This document shows positions 3,816 through 27,282 of a stretch of 33,102 nt of DNA, piece after piece; position 1 is the first letter of the stretch, and every line of letters begins with the position of its first letter. The notes beneath the pieces were generated by a model that saw nothing but the letters and a program-made list of their open reading frames with translations, had not been told where the DNA came from and ran no database searches. This DNA is from a virus, in IMG/VR virus record IMGVR_UViG_3300044646_001371, positions 1 through 33,102 of that record; one strand, 5' to 3'. Position numbers and translations under genes: made by a program.

Positions 3816-5954
3816 ATGATAAAATTAGGAAATAGCGGGATATTATTAAAGGTAGGTAGCCAGGATGTGCAATCAGCATATCTTGGTTCTACTTTAGTTT
3901 ATTCTGCTTCCACAACAACAACGAGTACTACAACAACTACTACATCGACTACATCTACCACAACCACAACTGCAAATCCAATACCATCAGGTGCATACGC
4001 ATTCTATGATTTTGGAAATGTAACATCTTATCCAGGTTCAGGTAGTACTGTATTCGATATAAGTGGAAATAGTAATAATGGTACATTAGTAAACTCACCA
4101 ACATTTAGTTCAACTTTTGGTGGTGAATTAAGATTAGATAATGCTAGTTCTCAAAGAATAGATTATTCAGCATCATTCACACCTGATACATCTGTTGTTG
4201 TTATTTGGAAAAACGTAGATTCAACATTCTCAAAAGATACAGGTTTTCCAGATGCAACATTTGCATATGGTATTAAGTACGCACCATTAGCAGCAACTAA
4301 AGGATATACACCTATATTGATGAGTAATTTAGGTGTAGGTAATACATACTTTGATGCAGAAGTAACCGCAACTGATATTACACAATGGCATCAATGGGGA
4401 TGTGTTGTAACATCATCAGGAACAAGCTCAACTGCAACTAACTATTTAGATGGAAATGCTTCTTCTGCAACTGAAACTAAATCATTTGATAGAAGTGGAA
4501 CATCGGGTAGCGGAACTGCATATTTAGGATGGGATAGTGCAGTAGGTGATAGATATGCTAATGGATATTTAATGGCTTATTTACAATATAATAGAGCGTT
4601 AACTACATCTGAATTGAATAGTATATACACATATTATTCAGCTAGATTTGGTGGTGGTACAACAACTACTACAACTACTGCAGCACCGACTACAACGACA
4701 ACAACAACAACCGCAGCTCCAACAACGACTACGACTACAACAGCTGCACCGACAACAACAACCACAACTCTGGCTAACGCTTGTTACAACCAAACAACTG
4801 TTACCTTTACATCAGATGATAACGTAAACTTTAGGTTTGGTTATACTTCATGTGATGGTACTCAATCTACATTAGGTGGAAGTACTCTAACGCCGGGTTC
4901 ATTTACATTTGATAGTTCTTATTGTATAAGAGCTGGTGAAGTGGTTGCTGCACCTTTGGGTGAAGGTACTGTGGTAACTGGCGTATCGCAAACTAGTCAA
5001 TGTGGAACTTTCACAACAACCACAACGACTACAACTGCCGCACCTACTACAACGACTACAACTGCAGGACCGACTACAACAACAACTACAACTGCAGCAC
5101 CGACAACAACTACAACTACTTTAGCTAGTTTTACAGTTGAATATTATTTAGTTGCTGGCGGTGGCGGTGGAGGCCGTTTAGGTGGAGGCGGTGCCGGTGG
5201 CGGTATTGTTTCAGGCTCTGCTACAATTGTGCCAGGTGTAGTCTATTCATTAACAGAAGGTGCAGGTGGATATACAGCTCAAAGTGGTAGTGCAACTACC
5301 GCATTTGGAGTAACTGCAATAGGTGGAGCAGCTGGCGGTGGAACTAATGGAGCTGCTACATCGGGAATGGCTTATGGTGGAGGTGGTAGTGGTAATACAG
5401 ATACATCAATACAAACAGGCTCGATAGGAGTATATGGATATAATGGTGGTGATGGTAGCTTCGCATTAGATACAAATGGTGGTGGAGCAGGTGGAGCTGG
5501 TGATGGATTTGATGGAGTAAGCGGAAGTTCAGGTAATGGTGGAGTACCTCTTTATATACCATACTTAAATAATAATGTACAATTATATATGAGTGCATCT
5601 TCAGGTGGTGGTGGAGCAGCAACCTTAACATCAACCAGAGGAGAAGGTGGTACATTAGATAGTAGTACCGGATTAGGTAATGGAGGAGTTTATAATTCAG
5701 TTGGACAAGATGGGTTTTGGCCGGGCGGTGGAAGTGGTGGACATAGTTCTAATGCAACAACAATTAATAGATGGGGAGCAATGGGATATATACAATTTGT
5801 ATATGATGGACCAATAAAAACTAATCTAGCCATAACAGGTTCAGGTGCAATACAAAATTATAACTCATCTGTTGATAAGACTTATGTAAGATTGATTCCT
5901 CCAGTATCCCCAACAAATGGTAGTAGTTACACTTGGACACTACAATATGGATAA
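3816..5954 (+). CDS. Modular tail adhesin: anchor, LamG-like domain, Thr-rich linkers, Gly-rich C-terminus
   Basis: 712 residues. Residues 1-31 carry a short segment (VKVGSQDVQSAYLGSTLVY type) that I know as an N-terminal module of Bacteroidetes phage tail proteins. Thr-rich linkers at about 33-52, 282-318 and 400-435 separate the domains. Residues about 55-275 look like a LamG/concanavalin-type jelly roll (YAFYDFGN..., DISGNSNNGTL, LRLDNASSQ, LAYLQYNRALTTSELNSIY-like end), often carbohydrate binding. Residues about 320-398 form a small Cys-containing domain. Residues about 440-712 are extremely Gly-rich (LVAGGGGGGRLGGGGAGGG), like polyglycine receptor-binding tips. The gene starts one base after the fibre stop. 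A role in binding host glycans is inferred. Confidence 0.7.
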   Translation: MIKLGNSGILLKVGSQDVQSAYLGSTLVYSASTTTTSTTTTTTSTTSTTTTTANPIPSGAYAFYDFGNVTSYPGSGSTVFDISGNSNNGTLVNSPTFSSTFGGELRLDNASSQRIDYSASFTPDTSVVVIWKNVDSTFSKDTGFPDATFAYGIKYAPLAATKGYTPILMSNLGVGNTYFDAEVTATDITQWHQWGCVVTSSGTSSTATNYLDGNASSATETKSFDRSGTSGSGTAYLGWDSAVGDRYANGYLMAYLQYNRALTTSELNSIYTYYSARFGGGTTTTTTTAAPTTTTTTTTAAPTTTTTTTAAPTTTTTTLANACYNQTTVTFTSDDNVNFRFGYTSCDGTQSTLGGSTLTPGSFTFDSSYCIRAGEVVAAPLGEGTVVTGVSQTSQCGTFTTTTTTTTAAPTTTTTTAGPTTTTTTTAAPTTTTTTLASFTVEYYLVAGGGGGGRLGGGGAGGGIVSGSATIVPGVVYSLTEGAGGYTAQSGSATTAFGVTAIGGAAGGGTNGAATSGMAYGGGGSGNTDTSIQTGSIGVYGYNGGDGSFALDTNGGGAGGAGDGFDGVSGSSGNGGVPLYIPYLNNNVQLYMSASSGGGGAATLTSTRGEGGTLDSSTGLGNGGVYNSVGQDGFWPGGGSGGHSSNATTINRWGAMGYIQFVYDGPIKTNLAITGSGAIQNYNSSVDKTYVRLIPPVSPTNGSSYTWTLQYG
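3912..3971 (+). repeat. Thr-rich tract 1 (adhesin)
   Basis: Residues 33-52 are almost all Thr with a few Ser. The codons mix ACA, ACT, ACG and ACC rather than repeating one triplet. Confidence 0.9.
4659..4769 (+). repeat. Thr-rich tract 2 (adhesin), TTTTTTTAAP units
   Basis: 37 residues of Thr runs separated by AAP, linking the LamG-like domain to a small Cys-containing domain. Confidence 0.9.
5013..5120 (+). repeat. Thr-rich tract 3 (adhesin)
   Basis: 36 residues of Thr runs separated by AAP or AGP, leading into the Gly-rich C-terminal domain. Confidence 0.9.
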
Positions 5955-25971: not shown

Positions 25972-26092
25972 ATCCAAATCATCAGGCGGTACTACAAAAG
26001 TATCATTCGGAAAAAAGAGTACAGGTAAAGCGAGAAAGAGTTATGGTCCCAAAGACCAAAAACCAAAAAGATATAGAGGCCAAGGCCGTTAA
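25964..26092 (+). CDS. 42-residue basic protein (KSYGPKDQK...RYRGQGR)
   Basis: Very basic and Gly/Ser-rich with no hydrophobic core: it starts MAKSKSSGGTTKVSFGKKST and ends KPKRYRGQGR. I recall near-identical tiny proteins at this place in Bacteroidetes phage genomes, so it is likely real and conserved. Nucleic-acid binding or packing inside the capsid is a guess from charge. It is the last gene before a strong terminator. Confidence 0.6.
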   Translation: MAKSKSSGGTTKVSFGKKSTGKARKSYGPKDQKPKRYRGQGR

Positions 26093-26108
26093 TCAGAGAG
26101 TAAACAAA

Positions 26109-26140
26109 GAAGGGTAGCCATAAAACAGCTACCCTTTCTT
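26109..26140 (+). terminator. Rho-independent terminator ending the structural genes
   Basis: AAGGGTAGC (26110-26118) pairs perfectly with GCTACCCTT (26128-26136) across a 9-base loop, followed by TCTT. It lies 17 bases after the last structural gene. A weaker inverted repeat follows at 26170-26176/26197-26203 (AAAACCT/AGGTTTT). Confidence 0.85.
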
Positions 26141-26220
26141 CATTTCAAAATTAAATACTATGGACAGTTAAAACCTCAACAATACAAATGTACGAAAGGT
26201 TTTTCAATTTTCCAAATTTA

Positions 26221-26264
26221 TTGCAAAAAGAAACCCACCCTGAAATGGCACTAACAGGGTGGGT
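26221..26264 (-). terminator. Minus-strand terminator
   Basis: ACCCACCCTG (26233-26242) and CAGGGTGGGT (26255-26264) form a perfect 10-bp stem with a 12-base loop. Only on the minus strand is the hairpin followed by a T-rich tract (TTTCTTTTTGC, 26232-26222), so it terminates leftward transcripts. Confidence 0.8.
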
Positions 26265-26344
26265 GTATATAAAAAGGTAATAGGACACTGATTATAAGTT
26301 ACGTGTATAAAGAATCAGTATTGATTAAGTCCTATTCTCTAATC
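26221..26344 (-). ncRNA. Candidate ~115-nt structured small RNA (minus strand)
   Basis: A minus-strand promoter at 26350-26381 and a minus-strand terminator at 26221-26264 bracket about 115 bases with no open frame. Read on the minus strand, AATAGGAC pairs with GTCCTATT (8 bp) and, inside it, ACTGATT pairs with AATCAGT (7 bp), separated on one side by a 9-base bulge (TTAATCAAT). The apical loop is about 20 bases. A U-rich linker leads to the terminator stem. A long hairpin with a one-sided internal loop recalls 6S-type RNAs, but size and sequence do not match one I know. It is the only convincing minus-strand transcription unit. Confidence 0.65.
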
Positions 26345-26349
26345 TTTAA

Positions 26350-26381
26350 CAAAGATACTTAAAAAAATCTACATTTCCAAA
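26350..26381 (-). promoter_or_regulatory. Bacteroidetes-type promoter, minus strand
   Basis: On the minus strand: TTTG (-33 box, 26381-26378), 20 bases, then TATCTTTG (-7 box, 26357-26350), matching TTTG-N19-21-TAnnTTTG. The start would fall near 26341-26344, just before the candidate small RNA stem. Confidence 0.75.
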
Positions 26382-26476
26382 TAAAAAATATTTTCATAAT
26401 TTCTAAAGAATATCGGCGCTTTCGAAAATTTGCTTATACTTATAATAAATACTACAAATTAGTTTAGTAACATAAA

Positions 26477-26508
26477 TTTGTTAATTTAAAATATTTGTTG
26501 TATATTTG
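26477..26508 (+). promoter_or_regulatory. Bacteroidetes-type promoter, plus strand
   Basis: TTTG (26477-26480), 20 bases, then TATATTTG (26501-26508), the same architecture and spacing as the divergent minus-strand promoter about 100 bases away. Transcription would start near 26514-26516 and run through the structured RNA toward the HNH gene and the small-gene block. Confidence 0.8.
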
Positions 26509-26513
26509 AAACA

Positions 26514-26850
26514 TCAACTCTAAAAATGGCACATCTCTAAAACAAATCCCCTAAAAGTAAATCGACCTGTATTCAAGCTACGATGATTCAGTTGAACGGT
26601 AGTAGTTTAGACATCGGATTAGTAATTGCACTACTGAAATAATGTAGAAACATAGCGATGAGGTTTTCTCCGGTAGGTCAAAAGAAATAGTTAATAAGAG
26701 ATTGACGAGTTGGTATAGGTTTTTGTACAGACACCCTTTACTATACTGATAATGACTCAACTACGAAGTACTATTTTGAAAAAATGCAGAAAGCTCCAAA
26801 GGGTGTTCTGGCTACATTCAGTAGTGTAAAATTATTTTAAAAAAAGTTAG
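26514..26850 (+). ncRNA. Candidate ~310-nt structured RNA (plus strand)
   Basis: There is no credible open frame on either strand, yet several long pairings are visible. ACTACTGA-AATA-ATGTAG (26630-26647) pairs with CTACAT-TCAGTAGT (26812-26825), 14 bp around one 4-base bulge. CAGACACCCTTT (26728-26739) pairs with AAAGGGTGTTCTG (26798-26810), 12 bp with one bulged base. GTATAG (26713-26718) can pair with CTATAC (26741-26746), forming a pseudoknot with the previous stem. GACCT (26564-26568) can pair with AGGTC (26675-26679) and CATCG (26612-26616) with CGATG (26656-26660). AGTAGT (26601-26606) competes for ACTACT (26630-26635). It follows directly after a strong promoter and precedes an HNH endonuclease gene. 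I do not recognise the class. Confidence 0.6.
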
Positions 26851-26916
26851 TTAAAACAGCTTTTTCGAAAAATTAAATGATATATATAAGTATAGTAAAA
26901 TAAAAACAATTATAAT

Positions 26917-27282
26917 ATGGCACATGAAATCTGGAAACCAATAGAAGGTTTCTCACTCTATCAAATCTCAAATACAGGAAAAGTAAGAACTTGTCAGAAA
27001 GGCAGGGGCAGAGTTAATTGGTATGAACTTAAATTAAGAAAGAATCATAGAAGTGGTTACATATATGTTGGATTATATGATAGCATCAGCAGAAAATGGT
27101 TTAGAGTTCATAGATTAGTTTATCAGCACTATACAGGTTGCATACCTGATACATTAGTAGTTGACCACATTGATAATGATAAACAAAACAATCACGTTAA
27201 CAACTTACAATTACTTACTAAATCAGAAAACGCTAAAAAATATCATAAATTAAAAAAACAAATCAATGAGCAAGAGTATTAA
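26917..27282 (+). CDS. NUMOD4-HNH endonuclease
   Basis: 121 residues. The N-terminal IWKPIEGFSLYQISNTGKVR is a NUMOD4 DNA-recognition motif. The HNH core is seen as FRVHRLVYQHY (His65) and LVVDHIDNDKQNNHVNNLQL (His84, Asn87 or Asn91), followed by a basic C-terminal tail. Such enzymes are homing-type nickases or, near terminase genes, packaging helpers. No intron or split gene is visible around it, so it is free-standing. The upstream structured RNA is part of its probable transcript. Its last 17 bases overlap the next gene. Confidence 0.85.
   Translation: MAHEIWKPIEGFSLYQISNTGKVRTCQKGRGRVNWYELKLRKNHRSGYIYVGLYDSISRKWFRVHRLVYQHYTGCIPDTLVVDHIDNDKQNNHVNNLQLLTKSENAKKYHKLKKQINEQEY

Follow-up and report, generated by a model that had tools for sequence, protein, structure and literature searches.

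The window analyzed here is the whole of a 33.1-kb virus record (33,102 nucleotides) from a tailed phage that encodes TerL, portal, and tape-measure proteins. Its structural operon ends at 26091 and is followed by about 825 nt of intergenic DNA, which reach up to a NUMOD4-HNH_3 homing endonuclease gene (Table 1). On balance, this locus appears to be a long 5′ leader, or an upstream RNA unit, of the homing endonuclease that holds two separate RNA features: a non-coding cassette on the plus strand and a small RNA (sRNA) on the minus strand. The 33.1-kb window has no tRNA genes, and a tRNA or tmRNA identity for the plus-strand region was rejected for lack of any such match; a group I or group II intron beside the HNH gene was likewise rejected, with no intron family among the covariance-model matches up to E = 10 across 26092-26950. 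The phage has Bacteroidota-type promoters (TTTG-N19/20-TAnnTTTG), TAnnTTTG being the promoter motif described for that phylum in the literature, and we infer that Bacteroidota are the likely hosts; a host search in genome contigs found no relative.

Table 1. Features of the intergenic region and the adjoining endonuclease gene, in window coordinates.
Feature	Position	Strand	Basis or remark
Second candidate minus-strand transcript	26110..26216	-	promoter 26216-26185, terminator 26136-26110
Small RNA (predicted)	26227..26353	-	covariance-model match, 108 bits; covariation
sRNA terminator hairpin, loop UUAGUGCCAUUU	26233..26264	-	seed is the complement of 26245-26251
sRNA promoter, TTTG-N20-TATCTTTG	26350..26381	-	sequence
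Promoter P1, Bacteroidota-type, TTTG-N20-TATATTTG	26477..26508	+	sequence; motif recurs in relatives
AAAUGGCAC, 9 nt complementary to the sRNA loop and close to the P1 transcript's 5′ end	26524..26532	+	reads as a 4-codon mini-ORF (MAHL-stop)
Non-coding cassette	26570..26827	+	26570-26813 common to L117 at 95.5%; without protein-family or Rfam match
Closing helix, 5′ strand	26628..26647	+	pairs with 26812-26827; unchanged in L117
Pseudoknot stem 1, 5′ strand	26709..26718	+	pairs with 26741-26750; crossing helix, 10 bp
Pseudoknot stem 2, 5′ strand	26730..26739	+	pairs with 26798-26807; 10 bp
Pseudoknot stem 1, 3′ strand	26741..26750	+	pairs with 26709-26718
Pseudoknot stem 2, 3′ strand	26798..26807	+	pairs with 26730-26739
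Closing helix, 3′ strand	26812..26827	+	pairs with 26628-26647
Second promoter-like element gctttttcgaaaaattaaatgatatatataagtatag, just 5′ of the HNH gene	26866..26900	+	inferred promoter
NUMOD4-HNH_3 homing endonuclease gene	26917..27282	+	Pfam HNH_3 8.8e-17, NUMOD4 5.5e-12; start AUGGCAC complementary to the sRNA loop

An earlier note on this DNA, made from its letters, had described a promoter upstream of an unrecognized RNA, and P1 is indeed present there, with TTTG at 26477-26480, N20, and TATATTTG at 26501-26508; its transcript would be expected to start near 26515. Elements similar to gctttttcgaaaaattaaatgatatatataagtatag precede nuclease genes in the relatives L007, L046, L050, L067, and L084. 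More broadly, an element of the form CGCTTTCGAAAATTT..ATACTTATA / GATATATATnAGTATA recurs on the plus strand at 26411-26455 and 26866-26900, 5′ of nuclease genes, and in the leaders of many relatives, and is probably a phage-specific promoter type.

The plus-strand cassette is delimited by comparison with one relative, L117, in which positions 5534-5777 match window positions 26570-26813 at 95.5% identity over 245 columns. Gene order in L117 is the same as in the window, the best-matching flanking DNA and neighbor genes are 65-72% identical, and the cassette begins 12 nt behind L117's own TTTG-N20-TACATTTG promoter, so that its slot is conserved relative to the promoter and not relative to the HNH gene. 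This high identity between diverged flanks, behind a promoter of L117's own, therefore points to a real, transferable cassette. L046 lacks the cassette, and its HNH gene comes about 55 nt after a promoter of this type, while in L008, L018, and L050 the slot is occupied by protein genes; the cassette is therefore a discrete accessory unit behind the promoter, non-coding and about 245-260 nt long. The earlier note had set the unit at about 310 nt, which is too long: the natural unit is the part common to L117 (26570-26813), possibly extending to about 26827. The L117 contig stops 11-15 nt past the shared part, where its letters are unrelated, contig ends being unreliable, so that of the closing helix the comparison with L117 covers the 5′ strand. 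The region is also carried by two near-identical contigs, L002 and L004, the sole carriers among relatives found via TerL, HNH, and a 184-aa sigma-like protein. Exact-pattern and 15-mer scans of viral contigs, together with the fetched relatives, gave no copies beyond the window, L002, L004, and L117 among the matches listed, and thus two distinct cassette sequences among those matches (the window type and L117); the phage, plasmid, and GTDB genome collections gave no match. No intrinsic terminator was found 3′ of the cassette, which is presumably transcribed. As antisense to other phage genes, its longest match is 11 nt, equal to shuffles. A direct repeat, ATGGCACAT, at 26526 and 26917 was considered as an insertion footprint and is unsupported, the L117 cassette boundary lying at 26570.

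Within the cassette, the three helices of the earlier note are present where it had placed them. The closing helix consists of 11 bp (26628-26638/26817-26827) continued by 26641-26647/26812-26818, and the two crossing stems form a proposed pseudoknot with loops of 11, 1, and 47 nt. The note's statement that so much complementarity is unlikely by chance holds in part. When 26570-26827 was shuffled 400 times with its dinucleotides preserved, the five best helices summed were matched in one shuffle, the best single helix in 14, and the best crossing pair in 18; the longest helix, on the other hand, is ordinary (176 of 400), and the folding-energy z-score is +0.33 for the whole leader (26514-26917), -1.31 for 26566-26828, and -2.33 for 26626-26829, the last with hand-picked ends and not taken as evidence alone. 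Complementarity in the cassette thus exceeds chance modestly. The window and L117 copies differ by 11 changes, of which none falls in the helices (P = 0.045) and nine fall in two pseudoknot loops; tested as an H-type pseudoknot, both crossing helices are invariant in the L117 copy, with no compensatory change between what are only two distinct sequences. Changes that spare the helices are consistent with a pseudoknot, not proof of one, and a pseudoknot core is a plausible reading of the cassette. The earlier note could not match the region to a known class, and a scan against Rfam bears this out: no family exceeds its gathering threshold, relaxed limits give chance-level matches only, there is no resemblance to GOLLD, and an identity with GOLLD or ROOL was rejected on the absence of a match. 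The idea of an unrecognized non-coding element between a promoter and the HNH gene thus stands, as a discrete unit shared with L117 and without a protein-family match.

The earlier note missed a structured RNA on the opposite strand (26353-26227), established by comparison and complementary to the HNH start codon. This sRNA, of about 125 nt, lies 150 nt upstream of the plus-strand region that had been noted, between the structural-operon terminator and P1, and by sequence it has both a promoter and an intrinsic terminator of its own. Its fold comprises a two-part stem that carries a conserved bulge on its 5′ side (CUUAAUcAAUA), followed by an intrinsic terminator hairpin; the constant features are the 5′ stem bulge (UUAA..AAU) and, in most copies, GUGCCA in the terminator loop. 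In an alignment of 20 sRNA sequences, 81% of pair cells are paired versus 55% when shuffled and at most 48% when slid, and the number of doubly changed pair cells (139 versus 57 in shuffles) was reached in 0 of 500 shuffles. A covariance model finds 46 matches at E < 0.004 in 86 sources, several of them duplicates of one phage and many outside the set from which the model was built, in either orientation. In many phages the sRNA lies close to the structural operon's end, and plus-oriented copies lie directly upstream of the nuclease gene in L038, L046, L061, L108, and L110. No Rfam match was found for the sRNA in 15 related loci. By these comparisons, we predict a structured small RNA gene with covarying helices on the minus strand. 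Rearranged or weak variants, in which the order of elements is changed or a terminator hairpin was not found, occur in L096 (1377-1462), L103 (87-176), L107, L112-L114, and L116.

The HNH gene starts with AUGGCAC, to which the sRNA's terminator loop, GUGCCAU, is complementary. In the 33 kb, ATGGCAC occurs three times, all within 26245-26923: in the sRNA loop (as the complement), at 26526, and at the HNH start (26917). The group has 671 distinct ORFs that reach 80 aa or more; those starting with ATGGCAC number 12, and every one is an HNH or zinc-ribbon nuclease-like gene, a classification that partly used the tested genes as queries; queries picked without regard to the start also recover ATGGCAC-start nuclease genes, and Pfam HNH_3 matches 7 of the 10 such ORFs tested, plus the window's own gene. 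In L061, L065, L067, L090, L102, and L105 the nuclease starts with AUGACA, AUGACU, or AUGAUA and the loop carries GUCAU, not GCCAU; in L061, L065, L102, and L105 the loop also matches letters upstream of the AUG. The start is ATGG in 17 of the 19 cases with a GCCA loop versus none of the 6 with a GTCA loop (Fisher P = 1.6e-4), and permuted loop-target pairs equal the true pairs in 0 of 20,000 trials; for the GTCA class alone this happens in 53-147 of 20,000 (P = 0.003-0.007) and for the GCCA class, in which the pairing excess is weak, in 330-1075 of 20,000 (P = 0.017-0.054), all of these P values being overstated since the sequences are related. L039, L095, and L008 fit the pairing of loop and start poorly. 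Across the group, the predicted sRNA seed is complementary to, and covaries with, the translation start of its target.

Initiation in hosts without Shine-Dalgarno leaders needs an unstructured neighborhood around the AUG (PMC6847099), and since Bacteroidota lack such leaders, the AUG itself would be a natural point of attack. In the mechanism that we propose, P1 would give rise to a plus-strand RNA containing the transferable non-coding cassette (26570-26827), which we take most probably to be an accessory RNA in which a long-range stem closes a pseudoknot core, and the HNH gene behind it would be read from its own promoter-like element. The sRNA would present GUGCCAU in its terminator loop and pair with the endonuclease start, where the loop, lying over the AUG and codons 2-3, would block ribosome binding; the loop would change along with any replacement of the endonuclease gene or alteration of its start. 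The P1 transcript, which contains the cassette, carries a copy of the target word at its 5′ end and may thus also be bound by the sRNA; for the plus-oriented copies, action in cis and in trans are both possible. Because a loop covering the AUG and the next two codons should block initiation, repression of the endonuclease, rather than activation, is the likeliest outcome, and that the sRNA blocks translation of homing endonucleases is our best reading of the sequences. For the cassette, we give an accessory RNA an even chance. The combined picture is one we hold tentatively, at slightly below even: a group of Bacteroidota-type phages would carry a dedicated sRNA that silences the homing endonuclease of the early operon and whose loop is re-aimed when the endonuclease changes, and in this phage the transcript would also hold a mobile, pseudoknotted accessory RNA that the sRNA could bind at its 5′ end.

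Alternatively, the cassette might do no more than act in cis as the 5′ leader of the HNH mRNA, with a pseudoknot that slows or gates the endonuclease and no function of its own. Phage T4 endonuclease genes are held back by mRNA structure, and no terminator separates the cassette from the HNH gene; against this, the placement shared with L117 is relative to the promoter and not to HNH, a promoter-like element of the HNH gene lies between the cassette and the start codon, and the related HNH gene of L046 does without the cassette, all of which makes a mere leader unlikely. Rather improbable is a wrecked accessory protein gene, or a source of a micro-peptide, in which the stems are incidental. 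The region is gene-free, as the earlier note had it, in that no plus-strand ORF of at least 60 aa is present; the cassette has 3-12 stops per frame. Its best plus frame combines 3 stops in 85 codons with the top codon score (13 of 500 shuffles scored as high), and a 19-aa ORF, MIQLNGSSLDIGLVIALLK (26582-26641), is unchanged in L117 and holds the first AUG behind the L117 promoter. That best score, however, is 0.06 versus a mean of 0.35 for real phage genes, far below most of them, and no Pfam, PHROG, or NCBIfam match was found in any frame searched. A conserved reading frame was looked for in the two copies, which have stops in common and are separated by two single-base, frame-shifting indels; a working protein is therefore unlikely, and the cassette was rejected as a protein-coding gene for want of an open conserved frame or a family match.

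Recent transfer alone would account for near-identity across otherwise diverged phages, and it is expected if the cassette is a DNA site (for replication origin, packaging, or recombination) or a short mobile DNA element moved by homing. A substitution-free tract of 639 nt relative to L004 (26415-27053), in contigs that are otherwise about 1.8% diverged, covers part of the leader and continues into the HNH gene, much as expected from co-conversion. The tract fits constraint or homing co-conversion, and since it reaches into HNH in a manner that suits recombination, we dropped it as proof of RNA constraint. The position of the cassette directly behind a promoter in both phages and the sparing of the helices by the changes between copies speak against a DNA element, and we regard it as quite doubtful. 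On the minus strand, the RNA could be a mere conserved terminator or boundary element whose loop arose as an inverted copy of the nuclease start; its location, in many phages, close to where the structural operon ends and the near invariance of GUGCCA would agree with this. Against this, the RNA also has a covarying 5′ domain and a promoter of its own, it is found in both orientations, and the loop tracks the start when this is AUGAC or AUGAU, including letters upstream of the AUG (L061, L065, L102, L105), so that such an origin, too, seems improbable.

Trans-acting sRNAs of the MicF and DicF kind pair through a seed at the translation start, which the sRNA seed described here also matches. 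Unlike these, the present sRNA is phage-borne, adjoins its target, covers the AUG and codons 2-3 rather than the Shine-Dalgarno sequence, and has no Rfam relationship. CfrI, an antisense RNA in the psbA and homing endonuclease region of cyanophage S-PM2 (PMC12197685), is also a non-coding RNA of a phage and is likewise associated with a free-standing homing endonuclease gene; it is a psbA-linked antisense, whereas the present sRNA has a compact terminator-loop seed that covaries with the endonuclease start in Bacteroidota-type phages. Start-blocking sRNAs are a known kind, and with CfrI there is precedent for an antisense RNA of a phage close to a homing endonuclease; this sRNA family, its target class, and its covarying seed appear to be undescribed in the literature searched, which includes few subscription papers. 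GOLLD and ROOL are far larger phage RNAs, proven by covariation and often lying near tRNA islands, with GOLLD often exceeding 800 nt (PMC12286853); the cassette resembles them as a phage-encoded candidate structured RNA, and differs in its size of about 250 nt, a window without tRNA genes, and the lack of an Rfam match. Homing endonucleases are selfish elements, which raises the question of how phages coexist with them; the proposed mechanism, if true, would give a case, both simple and testable, of selfish-gene control by RNA in bacteria that lack Shine-Dalgarno sequences. For anti-defense or regulatory screens, the cassette offers a new phage RNA candidate.

Several smaller observations concern neighboring or related sequences. 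L004 has at 1317, on the minus strand, a strain-specific insert with a 66-aa gene that starts with ATGGCAC and has its own promoter, a second possible sRNA target. The second candidate minus-strand transcript of the window (26216-26110) shows a weak, below-threshold likeness to the Rfam families L20_leader and BTncRNA_FopS. In L008, the leader behind the promoter (4660-4760) contains the crossing complementarities GTGAGAT/ATCTCAC and AAACCCC/GGGGTTT followed by a T-run, and is possibly another pseudoknot-terminator leader.
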